From Emticicia sp. BO119 (lineage in GTDB: Bacteria; Bacteroidota; Bacteroidia; Cytophagales; Spirosomataceae): DNA of 64,000 nucleotides. Shown in pieces: positions 30,278 through 43,192 of the stretch. How positions within the stretch are numbered: the stretch's first letter is position 1; each line of letters begins with the position of its first letter. The translations under genes and the position numbers were made by a program. The stretch is taken from positions 1 to 64,000 of the forward strand of contig NZ_JACETV010000004.1 in NCBI RefSeq assembly GCF_013912375.1, read 5' to 3'. The notes under the pieces are model-generated. The model saw only the letters and a list, made by a program, of their open reading frames with translations, ran no database searches and was not told the origin of the DNA.

Positions 30278-30997
30278 ATGAACAAAAAACCCTTACTGTT
30301 AATTGTTGCACTTATTGCTCTGGCCATTGCCTGTCATAAAACGCTAACCCACACCCCAATAGGCGAAAAATTCACACTCAATTATGAGGCCAATCGTTTT
30401 GAAAAAGAAATAGAGGCTTATGAAAAGGCTGATGCGGCTATAGGTTTAGATAAACTACAAGGACAGACCGTCTTTTATGGCAGTTCAAGTATCCGTCTCT
30501 GGAAGTCATTGAAAGAAGATTTTGCGCCAATGCCAGTGATTAATCACGGTTTTGGGGGTTCTACTTTCCCTGAAATGACTTACTATGCCGAACGCATGCT
30601 GGTACCTTATAAGCCTGAAAAGATTGTACTTTACTGTGAAAACGACCTTTTTTCGGGAAAAGAAAAAACACCCGAACAAGTATTTGATGCTTTTGCTGAA
30701 CTGGCTACGCTGATTCAGAATCGATTGCCTAAAGCAAAGGTGTATTATATTTCGATGAAGCCTTCTATTTCGAGAAAAGATAAATGGAACCTTACCACTA
30801 AAGCCGATGCTTTAATTAAGGAATATATAGACAAGCATAAAAACTTTACCTACATGAACATTGTGCCGGTGATGTATAGACCGAATGGAACTGTAAATGG
30901 TGAATATTTTATTAAAGACAGTTTACATATGACTCCAAAAGGATATGCGCAGTGGACTTCTGTTATAAGACCTGTTCTTCTTAAAAACAATAAATAA
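30278..30997 (+). CDS. SGNH/GDSL-family hydrolase, exported
   Basis: A 239-residue esterase or lipase-like protein. The N-terminal LLIVALIALAIAC is a lipoprotein signal with Cys19. SGNH blocks are visible: VFYGSSSIRLWKSL (nucleophile Ser), HGFGGSTFPEM (Gly), YCENDLFSGK (Asn) and KDSLHMTPKGYAQW (Asp-x-x-His). It lies 26 bases before the AXE1 esterase gene and is likely in the same operon. It may remove acyl groups from a carbohydrate, as inferred from the neighbour. Confidence 0.88.
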   Translation: MNKKPLLLIVALIALAIACHKTLTHTPIGEKFTLNYEANRFEKEIEAYEKADAAIGLDKLQGQTVFYGSSSIRLWKSLKEDFAPMPVINHGFGGSTFPEMTYYAERMLVPYKPEKIVLYCENDLFSGKEKTPEQVFDAFAELATLIQNRLPKAKVYYISMKPSISRKDKWNLTTKADALIKEYIDKHKNFTYMNIVPVMYRPNGTVNGEYFIKDSLHMTPKGYAQWTSVIRPVLLKNNK

Positions 30998-31023
30998 CAA
31001 CCTGTTTTCAACCCCTATTTAAC

Positions 31024-32319
31024 ATGAAAAAAAATTTACTCATTCTGGGTCTTAGCTTGCTGGCGACCCTCGCATTTGCTCAACCCACTGAAAAGCTGAT
31101 TAAAGTAATTGTTGCTCCTGAGCATGACGACTGGAAGTATAAAATCGGAGAACCTGTGAAGTTCTCGGTAATGGTTTTAAAATACGGGAATCCGGTAAAA
31201 AATGCTAAAATCGTTTATCAGATCGGGCCAGAGAAATTTGAAACCAGAAAAGACAGTACTGTTCTAAAAGACGGTATCATCAAATTAGATGGCGGTACCA
31301 TGAATACAGCCGGTTTTTTAAGATGCACCGTAATTGCCAAAGTAGATGGTAAAGAGTACAGAAATCTGGCTACTGCGGCCTTTGAGCCAGAGAAAATTCA
31401 ACCTGCGGTAGAGCTGCCTTCTGACTTCGTCCAATTCTGGGATAAAGCTAAAGCCGACTTAGCCAAAGTACCTATGGATGCCCAAATGACTTTGTTGCCT
31501 GAGCGTTGTACAGAAACAGTAAACGTGTATCATGTAAGCCTGCAAAACTATCGTGAGTATGGCACTGTACGCTTATATGGTATTTTATGTGTGCCTAAGA
31601 AAGAAGGGAAATATCCGGCTTTATTAAGAGTGCCGGGTGCAGGTGTAAGACCTTATGGAGGTGATATAAGAACAGCCGAAAAAGGGATTATCACATTTGA
31701 AATAGGTATTCATGGGATTCCGGTAACAATGGAGCCATATATTTATACCAATTTAGGCGCAGGGGCTTTAAATTCTTACTGGACTTATAATTTAGATAAC
31801 AGAGACCTGTATTATTATAAACGTGTGTATTTAGGCTGTGTAAGAGCCAATGATTTTCTGGTAAGTCTGCCGCAATATGATGGTAAAAATCTGGCGGTTA
31901 CTGGTGGTAGTCAGGGGGGAGCCTTATCTATTGTTACGGCAGGCCTTGACCCACGTGTAAAATGGACTGCCCCTACCTACCCTGCTTTAGCTGATATGGT
32001 TGGTTATCTGAAAGGCCGTGCAGGTGGATGGCCGCATATTTTCGACAAAAACAATCCACATAATAATACCGAAGCTAAAATCAAAACAGCGTCTTATTAT
32101 GATGTCGTGAATTTTGCCAAGCAAATGAAAATACCTTGTTTCTACTCAATGGGTTTTAATGACGAAACCTGTCCGCCAACATCTATGTGGGCAGCATATA
32201 ACGTGATCAGCTCGAACAAAACTCTAAAACTGTATCAGGAAACAGGCCATTGGACGTTCCCTGAAGAAAATGAAATGGTAATGAACTGGTTATATGATAA
32301 ATTACTAATAACCAAATGA
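31024..32319 (+). CDS. Acetyl xylan esterase-like (AXE1, CE7) secreted hydrolase
   Basis: A 431-residue exported hydrolase. After a signal peptide (MKKNLLILGLSLLATLAFAQ) comes an immunoglobulin-like beta domain (about 25-125), then an alpha/beta hydrolase domain of the AXE1 type. The nucleophile is in VTGGSQGGALS, the acid in GFNDETCPP, and the His in TGHWTFPEE. CE7 enzymes deacetylate xylo-oligosaccharides or cephalosporins. The stop codon overlaps the ComEC start (ATGA), so the two are translationally linked. Confidence 0.9.
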   Translation: MKKNLLILGLSLLATLAFAQPTEKLIKVIVAPEHDDWKYKIGEPVKFSVMVLKYGNPVKNAKIVYQIGPEKFETRKDSTVLKDGIIKLDGGTMNTAGFLRCTVIAKVDGKEYRNLATAAFEPEKIQPAVELPSDFVQFWDKAKADLAKVPMDAQMTLLPERCTETVNVYHVSLQNYREYGTVRLYGILCVPKKEGKYPALLRVPGAGVRPYGGDIRTAEKGIITFEIGIHGIPVTMEPYIYTNLGAGALNSYWTYNLDNRDLYYYKRVYLGCVRANDFLVSLPQYDGKNLAVTGGSQGGALSIVTAGLDPRVKWTAPTYPALADMVGYLKGRAGGWPHIFDKNNPHNNTEAKIKTASYYDVVNFAKQMKIPCFYSMGFNDETCPPTSMWAAYNVISSNKTLKLYQETGHWTFPEENEMVMNWLYDKLLITK

Positions 32320-34373
32320 AATTCAACGCCTTTCCTGTAGTTAGATACCTACTGTGTTTAATTGCAGGAATACTGGCGTATTTGCAAACTCACTATTTCA
32401 ATACAGTTTTCTATTATACCGGTGCTGGTTTGCTTTTAATATTGCTAACCAGCATTTTCTTTCGCAGTCCTTTATTCAGAGGTATAAGTGCCTGCCTGCT
32501 TCTTTTTTTGTCTGGCTGGGTGCTGGCTTATCAGAAAACCGTCATTAACAATCCTGAACATTTTACTAATCAGAAGAACTTTTCCTACTATCAGGCTATT
32601 ATTACTTCTAATGCTGAGATAAAAGCCAAAACCTATAAGGTTGAAGCAGAAATCCGACAGGTACGCACTTCGGAAAAATGGCAGAAAGCAACCGGAAAGA
32701 TACTGCTTTACTTCAACAAGGCAGAAGCAAAAAAACCACAATACGGTGATATTTTTCTGATAAAGAATATGCCATCAGAAATAGACCCACCAAAAAACCC
32801 TGAAGAATTTGATTACCGACAGTTTTTGCGTAATAAAGGCATTTATGGACATCATTTTTTATGGCAGAACGAATATTTGAAGATTGGCCATCAAGTTCCT
32901 GCTACCATACTCAAAATTGCTTATCAGGCCAATTTGTATGCTGATAGTGTTTTTAAAGCTCATTTAAAGACTGTCAATGAATATGCCATTACCAATGCAA
33001 TGGTAGTAGGTACGCGCGACGATATTGATGATGAGTTGCTTAGTGCTTATTCGGCTTCCGGTGCTATTCATGTTTTATCAGTTTCGGGTATGCATGTAGG
33101 GATTTTATTTCTGGTTCTATCTACCCTATTAAAAAGCATCAAGACAAGGATTAAATACGGCAACTGGGTTTTCACAATTATTGTTTTGCTTCTTTTATGG
33201 ACATATGCCGTTTTTACAGGTTTATCGTCAACTGTGCTTCGGGCTACAGTTATGTTTTCTTTTATTCAGATTGGCACTACCATTAACCGACGGCATAATA
33301 TTTATAATATCCTGGCGGTATCGGCCTTAGTTTTGCTTTGGTATAATCCATACTGGTTGGCTGAAGTTGGTTTTCAGTTATCTTATTTAGCTATTCTGGG
33401 CATTGTTTATCTGTATCCGTATTTAAATCAGTTAATTAATCCTACCAATCCAATCGTTCGGGTTCTTTGGGAAGGAACAGTTGTATGCTTTGCTGCCCAG
33501 TTATTTACTGCGCCGTTGAGCATTTATTATTTCCATCAGTTTCCGACCTATTTTCTGATTGCGAATCCTTTCGTAGCTTTCTTTTCTTTTTGGATTTTGC
33601 CTGCGGGTTTATTATTACTCATTTTTTCCTGGGTTCCTGTTGTCTCTACTTTTGTGGCAGTCATCTTAAAGTGCTCTTGTTATTTATTAAATGAAACTAT
33701 CTTTGCTATTGAGAAACTGCCCCTGTCAACACTCAAAGGCTTTTCTATCTCAATACCTGAATTATTAGCATGGTATGCTATTATCATTTTAGTGATTGCA
33801 TTTTTTCGCCATTCAGAATTAAAGTATCTGAGGGTTTCGGCAGTGTTCTTTATTGGTCTGGCTTTAGTCAATGTCTATGAAGATTATCAGCAAAGTCGGC
33901 AAAAACAATTGACTTTTCATTTTTTACCCAAACAAACGGGCATCAGTGTGATTGATGGGAAATCTGTTGCTTTTATTGCGGATTCAGGCGTAATTAACAA
34001 CAGGAAATTATATAATTTCCATCTGAAAAACTATTATGACAAACGAGGTGTTTCTAATCTGAACCTGTTGAATTTAGATGCCCATACTAATAAGCAAGGT
34101 ATGATGTTCCTGGATTTTGAGGGGAAGAAAATTATCTGGCTGCAAAAGCCTTTTAAAGGCACTTTACAAGGCAATGCCGATTATGTTTTATTATCAAATA
34201 ATGCCATAAGGAATCTGGCTTCTTCTTTTGGTAGTTTTCAGAATGAGCTGATTATTATAGATGATTCTAACAAAAGCTATCTGATAGAAAAACTGAAACG
34301 TCAGGCCGATAGTTTGCGTTTAAATCTTATTGCCTTGCGAGATACAGGTGCTTATTCTATTATAGGTAATTAG
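32316..34373 (+). CDS. comEC: ComEC/Rec2-family DNA-uptake membrane protein
   Basis: A 685-residue polytopic protein forming the inner-membrane channel for incoming single-stranded DNA in natural competence. It shows the N-terminal DUF4131 region, the Competence domain (SASGAIHVLSVSGMHVGILFLVLS, SSTVLRATVMFSFIQIG) and multiple membrane helices. The C-terminal part (VIDGKSVAFIADSG, about 530-685) is a remnant of the metallo-beta-lactamase-like domain without HxHxDH, common in Bacteroidota. Its start overlaps the esterase stop by 4 bases; a functional link is not obvious. Confidence 0.92.
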   Translation: MKFNAFPVVRYLLCLIAGILAYLQTHYFNTVFYYTGAGLLLILLTSIFFRSPLFRGISACLLLFLSGWVLAYQKTVINNPEHFTNQKNFSYYQAIITSNAEIKAKTYKVEAEIRQVRTSEKWQKATGKILLYFNKAEAKKPQYGDIFLIKNMPSEIDPPKNPEEFDYRQFLRNKGIYGHHFLWQNEYLKIGHQVPATILKIAYQANLYADSVFKAHLKTVNEYAITNAMVVGTRDDIDDELLSAYSASGAIHVLSVSGMHVGILFLVLSTLLKSIKTRIKYGNWVFTIIVLLLLWTYAVFTGLSSTVLRATVMFSFIQIGTTINRRHNIYNILAVSALVLLWYNPYWLAEVGFQLSYLAILGIVYLYPYLNQLINPTNPIVRVLWEGTVVCFAAQLFTAPLSIYYFHQFPTYFLIANPFVAFFSFWILPAGLLLLIFSWVPVVSTFVAVILKCSCYLLNETIFAIEKLPLSTLKGFSISIPELLAWYAIIILVIAFFRHSELKYLRVSAVFFIGLALVNVYEDYQQSRQKQLTFHFLPKQTGISVIDGKSVAFIADSGVINNRKLYNFHLKNYYDKRGVSNLNLLNLDAHTNKQGMMFLDFEGKKIIWLQKPFKGTLQGNADYVLLSNNAIRNLASSFGSFQNELIIIDDSNKSYLIEKLKRQADSLRLNLIALRDTGAYSIIGN

Positions 34374-38503: not shown

Positions 38504-39352
38504 ATGGAAACTATCGAAAATCAGGAACTTATAGATTATAACCGAATAGAACGCGCTATTCATTTTATTGAAGAAAACTTTCAGAACCAGCCAAGTCTGA
38601 AAGAGGTTGCCGACCATGTAGCTTTATCAGAGTTTCATTTTAACCGGCTTTTCAGCAAATGGGCAGGTACAAGTCCGCAACGGTTCATGCGTTTTCTGAC
38701 CAAAGAATTTGCCAAAGAAAAGTTAGCTCAAAGCGATAACTTATTAGCTGCTACTTTTGAGTCGGGCTTATCGAGCACCAGCCGTCTGCATGATTTATTT
38801 GTCAATTACGAGGCAATGACTCCAGCCGAATTTAAATCTAAAGGAGAAGGACTTACCATTTATTATGGTATTCATGAAACACCATTCGGCGAATGCCTGA
38901 TAGCTGTTACCGGGCGTGGTATTACCGATTTGCGGTTTCTGGAAAACGAAAACAAGGAAGGGGTAATTCAGGAACTAAAAGAAGATTTTTTCAATGCTGA
39001 AATCATTTTCGACAATGCTTTTACCAGACCTTTTATAGACCAGATATTCTACGCAACTGAGTCTACAGATTCTCCCGTCACCCTTTTGCTAAGAGGCACT
39101 AATTTTCAGATAAAAGTCTGGGAGGCTTTATTGAAAATCCCATTCGGACAAATGGTAAGCTATGAAACGATTGCCCAAACCATCGGCCAGCCAACCGCGC
39201 AAAGAGCCGTAGGAACCGCCATCGGCAGTAACCGATTAGGGTATATTATTCCGTGCCATAGAGTGCTACAAAAAGTCGGAGGCATTGGTGGCTATCGCTG
39301 GGGTACAACCCGCAAAAAGGCAATTTTGGGTTGGGAAATGGCGCGGGCTTAA
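38504..39352 (+). CDS. Ada-like AraC regulator fused to O6-alkylguanine-DNA alkyltransferase
   Basis: A 282-residue two-domain protein. Residues about 10-105 form an AraC helix-turn-helix (ALSEFHFNRLFSKWAGTSPQRF). The C-terminal half is an MGMT/Ogt domain: FQIKVWEALLKIPFG, the Cys251 acceptor in IPCHRVL and GGYRWGTTRKKAILGWE. It lacks the N-terminal zinc domain with which full-length Ada senses phosphotriester methylation. The adjacent gene at 39349-39609 encodes a stand-alone form of that domain. The two stop codons overlap by 4 bases, tail to tail. Confidence 0.93.
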   Translation: METIENQELIDYNRIERAIHFIEENFQNQPSLKEVADHVALSEFHFNRLFSKWAGTSPQRFMRFLTKEFAKEKLAQSDNLLAATFESGLSSTSRLHDLFVNYEAMTPAEFKSKGEGLTIYYGIHETPFGECLIAVTGRGITDLRFLENENKEGVIQELKEDFFNAEIIFDNAFTRPFIDQIFYATESTDSPVTLLLRGTNFQIKVWEALLKIPFGQMVSYETIAQTIGQPTAQRAVGTAIGSNRLGYIIPCHRVLQKVGGIGGYRWGTTRKKAILGWEMARA

Positions 39353-39609
39353 TGTTGCGATTTCCAATGTAAATATTCTTTCTTCATACAGACCGCACAG
39401 GGGCGATAACCAGAATCAATCGCCTCTGCTTCGTTTTCAAAAAATATCCTGTTTCCTATTTTCATTCTTTTACCTGCCCTGCAATCTAATCGACCATAGA
39501 TTTTCAGGTTTTTATTTCCACCAAAAGCTATTTCTCCAGATTGTATCTTTAATAATAAATCCTTTGAACGTGCAAAAGCTTTATTGCCTACATCTTTGTG
39601 TCTTATCAT
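39349..39609 (-). CDS. Small Ada-type metal-binding domain protein
   Basis: An 86-residue protein resembling the Ada zinc-binding domain: LKIYGRLDCRAGKRM, then NRIFFENEAEAIDSGYRPCA, then VCMKKEYLHWK. Cys56 fits the reactive Cys38 position of Ada and a C-terminal Cys-x2-Cys pair is present, but the second ligand (CRAC in Ada) is CRAGK here, so the four-Cys site is incomplete. Similar small proteins occur in Bacteroidota. Its start overlaps the stop of the 2OG oxygenase by 4 bases, so they form one operon. Confidence 0.75.
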   Translation of the reverse strand: MIRHKDVGNKAFARSKDLLLKIQSGEIAFGGNKNLKIYGRLDCRAGKRMKIGNRIFFENEAEAIDSGYRPCAVCMKKEYLHWKSQH

Positions 39610-40319
39610 TGCGCATCATGAAAGATAATTCCCAGATTAATTCTTTCACCAGTCTTTACCTCACTTACTCCATGCCGCATGGTTGTTCGGTAATAACCTT
39701 TTGTACCCAATACCGGACGGAAATTAGTAGTAAAAATAACAGCCTCACCCCTATCAGGCTGCAATACGACAGGCTTTGATTGCATACGAGGGCGATTCTC
39801 TACCATCACAAATTCTCCGCCTGTATAATCAACTTGCGCTTGGGTCAGAAAGAACACTATCTGAAATGGAAAATATACTTCTCCATATAAATCCTGATGC
39901 AAAGCATTCCAGTCACCTGTATGATATTTTAATATTAATGGTGTTGGGCGATTTTGTTCTGCCTGATGACACTTTTCTAAGAGTTCTTCTAATTGGTTGG
40001 GAAAGACCTCATTTATTCCTAATTTAAACGCCCAGTCGTTAGCTACTTTTGCTAAATATGGATATATTGAATGCCGCAAATCTGTAATTATATCTGGCAA
40101 AGGGTATTTAAAGTATTTATATTCTCCACTACCAAACTGATAGCGTTTCATATTAATAGTACTTCGATAAAGTGTATTATCATCGTAAGAGGCTGTTAAT
40201 GCCTTACACTCTTTGGCTGAAAGAATTTCCGGCAAATGCGCATATCCTTTCTCATGAAGACTTTCGGCATAACGCGGCCAGTCTAAGTTTTCTATGCGTT
40301 GAGCGATTGTTTCTGACAT
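39606..40319 (-). CDS. 2OG-Fe(II) oxygenase
   Basis: A 237-residue 2-oxoglutarate and iron-dependent dioxygenase. The HxD motif is in WNALHQDLYGEVYFP, the distal His in TMRHGVSEV, and the 2OG-binding Arg in GERINLGIIFH. This family (COG3826-like) often lies next to ada-type genes, so repair or adaptation to alkylation is a fair hypothesis, although AlkB signatures are not clear. It is followed with overlap by the Ada-type domain gene, which in turn meets the AraC-MGMT gene. Confidence 0.85.
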   Translation of the reverse strand: MSETIAQRIENLDWPRYAESLHEKGYAHLPEILSAKECKALTASYDDNTLYRSTINMKRYQFGSGEYKYFKYPLPDIITDLRHSIYPYLAKVANDWAFKLGINEVFPNQLEELLEKCHQAEQNRPTPLILKYHTGDWNALHQDLYGEVYFPFQIVFFLTQAQVDYTGGEFVMVENRPRMQSKPVVLQPDRGEAVIFTTNFRPVLGTKGYYRTTMRHGVSEVKTGERINLGIIFHDAQ

Positions 40320-40460: not shown

Positions 40461-42374
40461 ATGAGTACAGAAAACTTACAACCAACAGAAGAAACACTTG
40501 ACCCTAATAACTGGAATGAAATAAGAGCCTTAGGCCATCAGATGATTGACGATATGATTGATTATCTGCAAGGATTAAGCAATAAACCCGTATGGCAACA
40601 GCCTACCGCAGAAGTAAAAGAAATATTGAATCGCTCGCTTCCAAAAGAAGGCCAGCCAGCCGAAGAGATCTATCAGGAATTTCTTTCTTATATACTACCT
40701 TATAACAAAGGTAATATACACCCTCGTTTTTTCGCATGGGTACAAGGCAATGGGACACCGTTGGGAATGTTGGCTGATATGCTGGCTTCGGGTATGAATC
40801 CTAATACTACCATCGGCGACCACGCGGCTATGTACGTAGAGCAACAGGTGATAGAATGGTCAAAAGAAATGTTTGGCTTTCCAGAAAGTGCCAGTGGTTT
40901 ATTAGTAAGTGGCGCAACAATGGCTAATCTCACGGCACTTACAACTGCCAGAAACTCACTACAAGATTTACAAATAAGAGTAAAAGGAACCGACAACAAA
41001 TTAACCGTTTATTGCTCGGCAGAAACCCATATCTGTGTCATAAAGGCTACCGAAGTATTAGGTATTGGTAGTGAGCGTACAAGAATAATTCCCGTAACTG
41101 ATACTTTCCAGATAAATGTTCCTGCGCTGGTAACCAAAATTAAAGAGGATATTGAAGCCGGTTTCAGACCATTTTGTGTAGTGGGGAATGCCGGAACGGT
41201 TAATACCGGCGCAATTGACCCATTAGAAGAACTCTATCAGATATGCCAGGAATTTGGTTTATGGTTTCATATAGACGGTGCCTTTGGTTCATTGGCAAAG
41301 CTTACCCCTTCATTCTCGGAAAAACTAAAAACCATAGAAAAAGCCGATAGTCTGGCTTTCGATTTCCATAAATGGCTACACGTTCCTTATGAATCTGCCT
41401 GTGTTTTAATCAGAGATAAAAAACTACATCAGGCAGCGTTCTCATCAGTGCCTAATTATTTATCAGCCCATGAAAGAGGACTTGCAGCAGGTCCAGAGCC
41501 TTTAACGAATTATGGAATAGAATTATCAAGAAGTTTCAAGGCTTTAAAAGTATGGATGTCGTTGAAAGAGCACGGTATCCTGAAATATGGCCGTTTGGTG
41601 CAACAGAATATCAATCAGGCTGAATATTTAGGAGAAAAAGTATCTAAAGCTATGAATTTAGAATTGCTTGTTCCGATAAGTATGAATATAGTCTGTTTCC
41701 GTTTCAACGACGGCGCCCATACTGAAGAAGCATTGAATCAATTGAATAAGGAGATTCTGATGCGCTTGCACGAGTCGGGTATTGCCGCACCATCTTATAC
41801 TATTATTCATGGCAAATATGCTATTCGTGCCAATATTACCAATCATCGTACCCGCCTGGAAGATTTAGATTTATTAGTCAACACTATTGTAAATATTGCT
41901 ACTGGCCTTTTAATAAAAGTAGTTGAATTTGATACCAGTAATCTGAAGCACTATCAGGCATTTAAAGACATTAACTACGACTGGATAAACAAATACTTCA
42001 AAGTTGAGCAAGGCGATCTGGATTCCTTAGAAAATCCTGTAAAGTATTTCATAGCCACAGGTGGTGCAATTTTATTAGCTTGTCGTGGTGATGAAATTTT
42101 AGGAACTACCGCCTTAAAACCTATTGGAGATGATAGCTTAGAACTATGTAAAATGGGAGTAAGTGAAGCGGCTCGTGGCTTGGGCATAGGTTACGCTATT
42201 GGAGAGGCAGCTATCACAAAAGCAAAAGAATCAGGAGCTAAAAGATTGTATCTGGAAACCAATTCCAGTCTTAGTCCTGCTTTAAATCTGTACAAAAAAT
42301 TAGGATTTTCGCAGGTTAAAAATTTCACTTCTCCCTATGTAAGAGCCGATGTAGCGATGGAAATGTACTTATAG
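40461..42374 (+). CDS. PLP-dependent decarboxylase fused to a GNAT acetyltransferase
   Basis: A 637-residue fusion. Residues about 1-475 are a group II amino-acid decarboxylase: NPNTTIGDHAAMYVEQQVIEW, SGATMANLTAL, WFHIDGAFGS and the PLP Lys304 in FDFHKWLHVPYE. Residues about 485-637 are a GNAT domain with VSEAARGLGIGYAIGEAAI (acetyl-CoA loop) and LETNSSLSPALNLYKKLGF. The two together could decarboxylate an amino acid and acetylate the amine. The fusion is in one uninterrupted frame. A TATTTTTG -7-like box is at 40434-40441. The substrate is unknown. Confidence 0.9.
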   Translation: MSTENLQPTEETLDPNNWNEIRALGHQMIDDMIDYLQGLSNKPVWQQPTAEVKEILNRSLPKEGQPAEEIYQEFLSYILPYNKGNIHPRFFAWVQGNGTPLGMLADMLASGMNPNTTIGDHAAMYVEQQVIEWSKEMFGFPESASGLLVSGATMANLTALTTARNSLQDLQIRVKGTDNKLTVYCSAETHICVIKATEVLGIGSERTRIIPVTDTFQINVPALVTKIKEDIEAGFRPFCVVGNAGTVNTGAIDPLEELYQICQEFGLWFHIDGAFGSLAKLTPSFSEKLKTIEKADSLAFDFHKWLHVPYESACVLIRDKKLHQAAFSSVPNYLSAHERGLAAGPEPLTNYGIELSRSFKALKVWMSLKEHGILKYGRLVQQNINQAEYLGEKVSKAMNLELLVPISMNIVCFRFNDGAHTEEALNQLNKEILMRLHESGIAAPSYTIIHGKYAIRANITNHRTRLEDLDLLVNTIVNIATGLLIKVVEFDTSNLKHYQAFKDINYDWINKYFKVEQGDLDSLENPVKYFIATGGAILLACRGDEILGTTALKPIGDDSLELCKMGVSEAARGLGIGYAIGEAAITKAKESGAKRLYLETNSSLSPALNLYKKLGFSQVKNFTSPYVRADVAMEMYL

Positions 42375-42430: not shown

Positions 42431-43192
42431 ATGAGAAAAAAAATCGCCGCTGGCAACTGGAAAATGAATAAAACTTTCGACGAAGGCCAAATCCTTTTGT
42501 CAGAAGTAGTTAATATGGTGAAAGACGAAGTCGTTAATCCAAATGTACAGGTTGTACTTTGTGTGCCCTTTCCTTACCTAAGCACTTTCGGAAAATTGAT
42601 TGATACACCTAAAGTATCTCTGGGTGCGCAAAACTGTTATCCAAAAGCTTCTGGTGCTTATACCGGTGAGGTTTCTGTACCTATGTTACAATCGGTAGGT
42701 GTGGGGCATATCATTATCGGCCATAGTGAACGCCGTCAGTATTTCAATGAATCTGATGCTTTCTTAGCCGAAAAAACAAACGCTATCCTTGAAGCCGGAT
42801 TAACCCCTATCTTCTGTTGTGGTGAAACACTTGACCAACGCAACGAAGGTATCCATTTCGATTTCGTGAAAGGCCAGTTAACAAATGGTCTTTTCCATTT
42901 ATCAGCCGACGATTTAAAGAAAGTGGTAATTGCGTACGAACCAATCTGGGCTATCGGAACAGGTGTAACAGCCTCTAACGACCAGGCTCAGGAAATGCAC
43001 AAAATCTTAAGAGATCATTTAGCTTCTCAATACGGTGCAGAAGTGGCTGAGGAAATCAGCATTCTCTATGGTGGTAGCGTGAATGGTGCTAATGCACAAG
43101 AACTTTTCGCTTGTCCTGATGTAGACGGTGGTTTAGTTGGTGGTGCTTCTTTGAAATCAAGAGAATTTGTGAATATCGCCAAATCATTTTAA
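42431..43192 (+). CDS. tpiA: Triosephosphate isomerase
   Basis: A 253-residue glycolytic TIM-barrel enzyme interconverting dihydroxyacetone phosphate and glyceraldehyde-3-phosphate. It has the N-terminal NWKMN, the catalytic His in IIGHSERRQYF, the catalytic Glu in IAYEPIWAIGTG, and the phosphate loop YGGSVNGAN and GGASL. A -7-like TATCTTCG lies just upstream. The length is standard. Confidence 0.97.
   Translation: MRKKIAAGNWKMNKTFDEGQILLSEVVNMVKDEVVNPNVQVVLCVPFPYLSTFGKLIDTPKVSLGAQNCYPKASGAYTGEVSVPMLQSVGVGHIIIGHSERRQYFNESDAFLAEKTNAILEAGLTPIFCCGETLDQRNEGIHFDFVKGQLTNGLFHLSADDLKKVVIAYEPIWAIGTGVTASNDQAQEMHKILRDHLASQYGAEVAEEISILYGGSVNGANAQELFACPDVDGGLVGGASLKSREFVNIAKSF

Follow-up and report, generated by a model that had tools for sequence, protein, structure and literature searches.

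A decarboxylase-GNAT fusion protein in Emticicia: a rare fused form of a putative module for amino acid decarboxylation and N-acetylation

Group II decarboxylases and GNAT acetyltransferases are large families, and many of their members have no assigned substrate. The tryptophan decarboxylase of Ruminococcus gnavus (4obu/4obv) shares the catalytic residues H, D, K and Y with the protein described here and is also its first match by sequence, but it has no GNAT domain; in the alignment, its residues H120 and W349, which we take to line its substrate pocket, fall on N115 and T349 of the fusion. A two-step route catalyzed by two separate enzymes is already known: in Staphylococcus pseudintermedius, SadA followed by SPSE_0802 (SNAT) converts 5-HTP into N-acetylserotonin in two steps (PMC9992809). 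As in the fusion, a bacterial amino acid decarboxylase is followed by a small acetyltransferase; unlike the fusion, SadA and SPSE_0802 are two proteins, and aromatic substrates were shown for them (PMC9992809). Among the matches listed for the open-licence papers in PMC, where absence does not mean absence from print, no described enzyme with a decarboxylase-acetyltransferase fusion was found, and the statement of the earlier note on this DNA that it knew of no characterized enzyme with this layout is uncontradicted there. The main texts of PMC13281258, PMC12607914 and PMC9048412 contain no word starting with "fusion" or "fused". Two further comparisons come from genomes. In two-domain MarR-GNAT proteins from other members of this bacterial family (L222-L224), the GNAT domain is likewise C-terminal, but the N-terminal partner is, judged by eye, a MarR-like regulator and not an enzyme. 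A group of Emticicia genomes, hereafter clade B (L114-L120), carries the same GNAT gene at the same chromosomal place, but as one of two proteins and beside a decarboxylase of another subfamily.

The window, i.e., the whole stretch of DNA analyzed, comprises 64,000 nucleotides of Emticicia sp. BO119 (contig NZ_JACETV010000004.1, positions 1 to 64,000). On its forward strand, a single open reading frame starting with ATG (40461..42374) encodes a protein of 637 amino acids, with 0 internal stops in 637 codons. Two Pfam domains lie in this frame: residues 1-483 (40461..41909) form an N-terminal part that is a group II PLP decarboxylase, with PF00282 at residues 52-415 (214.4 bits against a gathering cut-off of 27), and residues 485-637 (41913..42371) form the C-terminal GNAT part, with PF00583 at residues 506-616 (58.8 bits against 20.7). 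The AlphaFold2 model of the whole protein, based on an alignment of 59 rows, has a mean pLDDT of 93.4 and a pTM of 0.86, and the GNAT part modelled alone reaches a pLDDT of 96.1. At the junction (41907..41915, forward strand) the final decarboxylase helix (466-483) abuts the first strand of the GNAT (485-489) without a linker, as assigned by DSSP on the model. In a codon scan, no in-frame ATG, GTG or TTG is present between codon 442 and codon 564, so that a complete GNAT is expected only within the fusion and not from a common start codon of its own. The same full-length frame is found in Emticicia sp. C21 (90%) and in E. agri (89%), which argues against both chance and an assembly error. Purifying selection acts on both domains: over the three pairs of fused species, the NG86 estimates of dN/dS are 0.052-0.057 (decarboxylase part) and 0.024-0.074 (GNAT part), values which are rough because dS (0.98-2.29) is near saturation, yet clearly low. 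A scan for promoters and terminators gave counts not above those in shuffled sequences. The decarboxylase-GNAT fusion is thus real, as the earlier note had claimed in describing a single frame with a group II PLP decarboxylase, an intact Lys304 and a complete GNAT; Pfam, the lysine of the DFHKW motif and the models agree on this.

The decarboxylase part retains the residues needed for catalysis. PLP decarboxylases use a lysine in an HK motif, a stacking histidine, an aspartate and a loop tyrosine as their catalytic set, and the fusion has H190, D272, K304 (DFHKW; codon 41370..41372, forward strand) and Y333 (codon 41457..41459, forward strand), the latter presumably being equivalent to Y332 of AADC. 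The lysine, histidine and tyrosine are present in all 32 decA-like rows of the alignment and the aspartate in 31 of the 32; lysine and tyrosine are found in both decB rows as well. Judged from this set, decarboxylation rather than aldehyde formation would be expected. The closest structure is the R. gnavus enzyme 4obv (VIA-align: Z 53.8, rmsd 1.8, 464 aligned residues, 30% identity); in the structural ranking, enzymes of tryptophan, glutamate, cysteine-sulfinate, lysine and diaminobutyrate type all lie within about 6 Z units. This part reaches the cut-off of none of the listed NCBIfam equivalogs; it stays below those for L-2,4-diaminobutyrate decarboxylase (NF052646; 163.9 bits against 900), the aspartate decarboxylase PanP (TIGR03799; 144.8 against 606.1) and the tyrosine decarboxylase MfnA (TIGR03812; 100.8 against 299.4).

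The pocket was compared by sequence alignment with that of AADC, whose aromatic pocket we take to consist of W71, Y79, F80, P81, I101 and F103. The counterparts in the fusion are N85, W93, V94, Q95, a gap and N115, so that only position 79 remains aromatic (W93), and S356 occupies the position of G354, assumed here to follow AADC numbering. At position 93, GAD presumably has glutamine, and the diaminobutyrate-type enzymes 2qma and 8zpi carry histidine in the alignments; since the fusion has an aromatic residue there, it may act on a hydrophobic substrate and not on an acidic or dibasic one. The decarboxylase of clade B has Y, V, N and S at the positions of W93, V94, N115 and S356, residues that would fit a substrate similar to that of the fusion. 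Overall, the pocket residues appear to match no characterized decarboxylase type clearly, and attempts to name the substrate from pocket positions, NCBIfam equivalogs, the fold ranking and neighboring genes did not converge on one answer and were rejected. The neighbors, identified by eye as aminotransferase-like and acyl-CoA ligase-like genes in the related Chitinophagaceae loci and as a MocR-like regulator, likewise offer no consistent hint at the substrate.

GNATs bind acetyl-CoA through a loop of the pattern R/Q-x-x-G-x-G/A and in addition have a tyrosine acid. Both are present in the fusion: the loop R-G-L-G-I-G (residues 572-577; 42174..42191, forward strand) fits the pattern, its last glycine (residue 93 of the GNAT part) being invariant in 19 of 19 aligned rows, and Y611 fills the position of the acid tyrosine. 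The best fold matches are 3d8p (VIA-align: Z 21.4, rmsd 2.0, 150 aligned residues, 23% identity) and 2q7b (Z 21.0), the titles of which say acetyltransferase and nothing more on function. The GNAT scores 36.3 bits against the equivalog cut-off of 86.4 of the RimI model TIGR01575, and no model of a serotonin or arylalkylamine N-acetyltransferase is among the NCBIfam matches of the fusion. Its nearest relatives outside Emticicia in the family genome sample are eight rows with 55-59% identity, in frames of 321-342 residues, and include the three proteins beginning with a MarR-like part mentioned above (L222-L224); the GNAT domain has therefore had other partners. By eye, the genes for these three proteins lie near glyoxalase-type dioxygenase-, esterase- and pirin-like genes, as in quinone resistance clusters.

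Within the genus, 11 Emticicia genomes with one locus each were compared. The fusion is present in three of them (G000, G001, G008), and in the seven clade B genomes (G003-G007, G009, G010) a separate decarboxylase gene is followed by a separate GNAT gene, whose start lies 6-20 nt past the decarboxylase stop, in the same frame in five genomes and in another frame in two. In the remaining genome (G002) the locus holds the GNAT but no decarboxylase, and thus the GNAT does not need this partner. In all 11 loci the next gene after the GNAT is tpiA (triosephosphate isomerase, identified by eye; 42431..43192, forward strand, in the window). The GNAT of the fusion shares 69-73% identity with the GNATs of clade B and 74% with that of G002, and the decarboxylases of clade B and the fusion share 36%. 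In the decarboxylase tree, a quick tree with some long branches outside the two clades concerned, the fusion falls into a clade of 29 rows, which otherwise consists of unfused enzymes of Bacteroidota type (SH-aLRT 100), and the clade B decarboxylase into a separate 11-row clade (SH-aLRT 100). A tree of Ada and tpiA separates the fused species together with G002 from clade B (100/100), and the GNAT tree, in which two long rows are of unsure place, agrees on the clade B group (99/99). From the identities and trees, two decarboxylase subfamilies stand beside one GNAT by descent, which means that one vertically inherited GNAT has gained two different decarboxylase partners.

On the other side of the fusion gene lies a divergent gene for an oxygenase (PF09859, Oxygenase-NA; 39606..40319, reverse strand) and further upstream one for an Ada-type AraC regulator with an O6-methylguanine methyltransferase domain (38504..39352, forward strand), both assigned by Pfam. 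A relative of the oxygenase adjoins the decarboxylase also in a Kapaibacterium locus (L077). An Ada-type AraC/O6-methylguanine methyltransferase gene is located at most five genes from the decarboxylase not only in the window but also, as a raw count, in 12 of 79 related loci (L033, L034, L038, L041, L042, L045, L050, L054, L060, L077, L082, L112), in several of them directly upstream.

The fused form is rare. Overlapping samples of 120 family, 390 order, 395 class and 395 phylum genomes, the last queried with the protein, contained no further single-frame decarboxylase-GNAT protein among the matches listed, with only matches below 1e-50 or 1e-80 counted and with up to ten (family) or three (order, class, phylum) first candidates per genome scored, so that weak second copies could be missed; for one family-level search about 150 best matches were listed. 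Among 197 decarboxylase frames in the loci, both domains occur together only in the Emticicia fusions (three genes, represented by seven records), and as far as seen the fusion is confined to one Emticicia clade.

Several candidates for further fusions were rejected. A tblastn search of a plasmid collection returned three records in which a single continuous match spans 80% or more of the query, none of them fused, with a stop after each decarboxylase: in the Ensifer adhaerens M8 record the stretch into which the match extends has no match to three GNAT profiles, and in Rhizobium leguminosarum GLR17 and R. laguerreae WSM1455 separate GNAT frames, the first of only 101-106 amino acids, lie behind a decarboxylase that looks AADC-like by eye. 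The 726-residue frame of L146_3 results from the bridging of a scaffold gap, beyond which the sequence resembles, by eye, a Trp-tRNA synthetase, and the 1214-residue frame of L229 has a long N-terminal part that by eye resembles another PLP enzyme; no GNAT was detected in either. The latter (L229 3155-6799) is a different fusion, of a decarboxylase of the fusion's kind with this PLP-enzyme-like part, and in L230, from the same genus, the decarboxylase is separate and is immediately preceded by a 725-amino-acid gene. Other long decarboxylase frames are those of G1158 (576), G018 (587) and L082 (620), with no GNAT match in the two examined as loci. In Fibrella aquatilis (L038 5992-7452; also G475) the decarboxylase frame is broken in the record by one in-frame stop.

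Unfused pairs of the two genes recur. Near relatives were taken from 80 loci ranked with the fused protein, so that loci with the fusion's GNAT type are favored; 79 had a called decarboxylase (L102 was dropped). Of these 79, 13 are paired with a GNAT: C21 and E. agri carry the fusion, and in the other 11 a GNAT lies on the same strand at most 100 nt away, always downstream. As a control, 6 of the 568 remaining genes in these loci have such a GNAT neighbor; four of the six adjoin GNATs already counted in the pairs, and two represent a single orthologous Ada-GNAT pair shared by C21 and E. agri. The remaining 66 loci have no GNAT within 100 nt, one of them (L084) having a GNAT 132 nt downstream. 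The 13 paired loci belong to Emticicia, to Mucilaginibacter, and to Chitinophagaceae together with a single unclassified Bacteroidota bin, and therefore reflect few independent events. The partner GNATs are of varying kinds, comprising Acetyltransf_1 types, one Acetyltransf_3 type and tandem GNAT-GNAT proteins encoded directly after the decarboxylase (L036 7452-8507; L231 2025-3041, the latter overlapping the decarboxylase end). In L238 a GNAT lies upstream of the decarboxylase, and in L197 (identical to L240, one genome) it overlaps the decarboxylase by 11 nt. All locus genes were called with a simple script that takes the longest ORF and by which some decarboxylases were overlooked (that of L231, masked by an opposite-strand frame, was read directly), and GNATs were detected with home-made iterated profiles, by which distant GNATs can be missed.

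The BO119 genome has a second PF00282 decarboxylase on another contig (L032 774-2703; G000:C22, about 30400-32400), with an HQVTPP motif, PanP as its best NCBIfam model (203.4 bits; cut-off 606.1) and a GNAT gene 19 nt upstream. Eight Emticicia loci carry this paralogue with 75-94% mutual identity, and a GNAT is found within two genes upstream in five of them, immediately upstream in four; L144, with about 30% identity, is another gene. In wider PF00282 samples, a GNAT lies within four genes in 5 of 36 loci at order level, all five being Emticicia copies of this paralogue, and in 1 of 37 at phylum level (L197), the latter after L178, L193 and L196 had been dropped from 40. A general rule that decarboxylases of the superfamily stand widely beside GNATs is ruled out by these counts; together with the 13 of 79 near relatives they show a pairing that is recurrent but not general.

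We read the protein as a real but rare fused form of an existing two-step module which decarboxylates and then N-acetylates. The N-terminal group II PLP decarboxylase would remove CO2 from an L-amino acid, and the C-terminal GNAT would transfer an acetyl group from acetyl-CoA onto the resulting amine, giving an N-acetylated amine; the fusion would have arisen when a decarboxylase gene joined, without stop or linker, the GNAT gene standing before tpiA across the sampled genus. That the fusion is such a two-step enzyme, from amino acid via amine to N-acetylamine, seems to us somewhat probable. The earlier note had proposed this conversion, and the recurrent unfused pairs lend the idea support; the reaction, the sequential action of both domains, the acetyl donor and the substrate are what we infer. 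A wider proposal, which we put forward tentatively as a possibility, is that the protein makes N-acetylamines on one chain, passing the amine between its active sites, and is the fused form of an unrecognized decarboxylase-GNAT module that arose several times from different decarboxylases and GNATs in Bacteroidota and possibly in rhizobia.

Among other readings, both domains might share one antimetabolite as substrate, a toxic non-protein amino acid, and act on it in parallel rather than in sequence, one detoxifying it by decarboxylation and the other by N-acetylation. Two GNATs accompany one decarboxylase in L036, L231, L237 and Emticicia clade B. Upstream of the clade B decarboxylase lie the second GNAT, nearest to ArsN2 with 40.2 bits against a cut-off of 125, and a MarR-type gene, whose best NCBIfam model is HpaR with a score under the cut-off; both genes would suit a resistance function. 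No listed resistance model passes its cut-off, however, and among the genes up to five positions from the fusion gene no relative of the clade B MarR gene turned up. Phosphinothricin acetyltransferases and a tabtoxin resistance protein are among the fold neighbors of the GNAT at Z 17-18, a range not distinct from many others and shared by N-terminal and ribosomal acetyltransferases. We consider parallel detoxification unlikely.

A still less likely reading is that proteins are the target of the GNAT, a lysine in the decarboxylase part being one example, so that the fusion would serve the control of the first enzyme and not a second metabolic step. The best phmmer match of the GNAT is indeed HP0935, titled a protein acetyltransferase (8iym; E 9.7e-9), although the two are just 24-25% identical. 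Relatives of the GNAT also form the C-terminal half of proteins of 314-325 residues (L202, L205, L212, L216), and the other half resembles, by eye, a MarR regulator in L222-L224; the differing kinds of GNAT paired with these decarboxylases in other lineages are easier to reconcile with a small product common to them than with one specific contact between proteins. An accidental fusion of two neighbors with unrelated roles, each domain being useful alone, would suit the GNAT standing before tpiA with or without a decarboxylase and the linkerless junction expected from stop loss between close genes, but it leaves unexplained both the clade B decarboxylase of other descent beside the same GNAT and the pairs in other families, and we regard it as quite improbable.

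For the preferred reading of a decarboxylase and an acetyltransferase acting in sequence, the fusion and the repeated pairing narrow both families together, the product of the decarboxylase being a candidate acceptor of the GNAT. Once named, the substrate could annotate the unfused pairs in other Bacteroidota, and a one-chain route to N-acetylated amines, if true, would be useful in biosynthesis.
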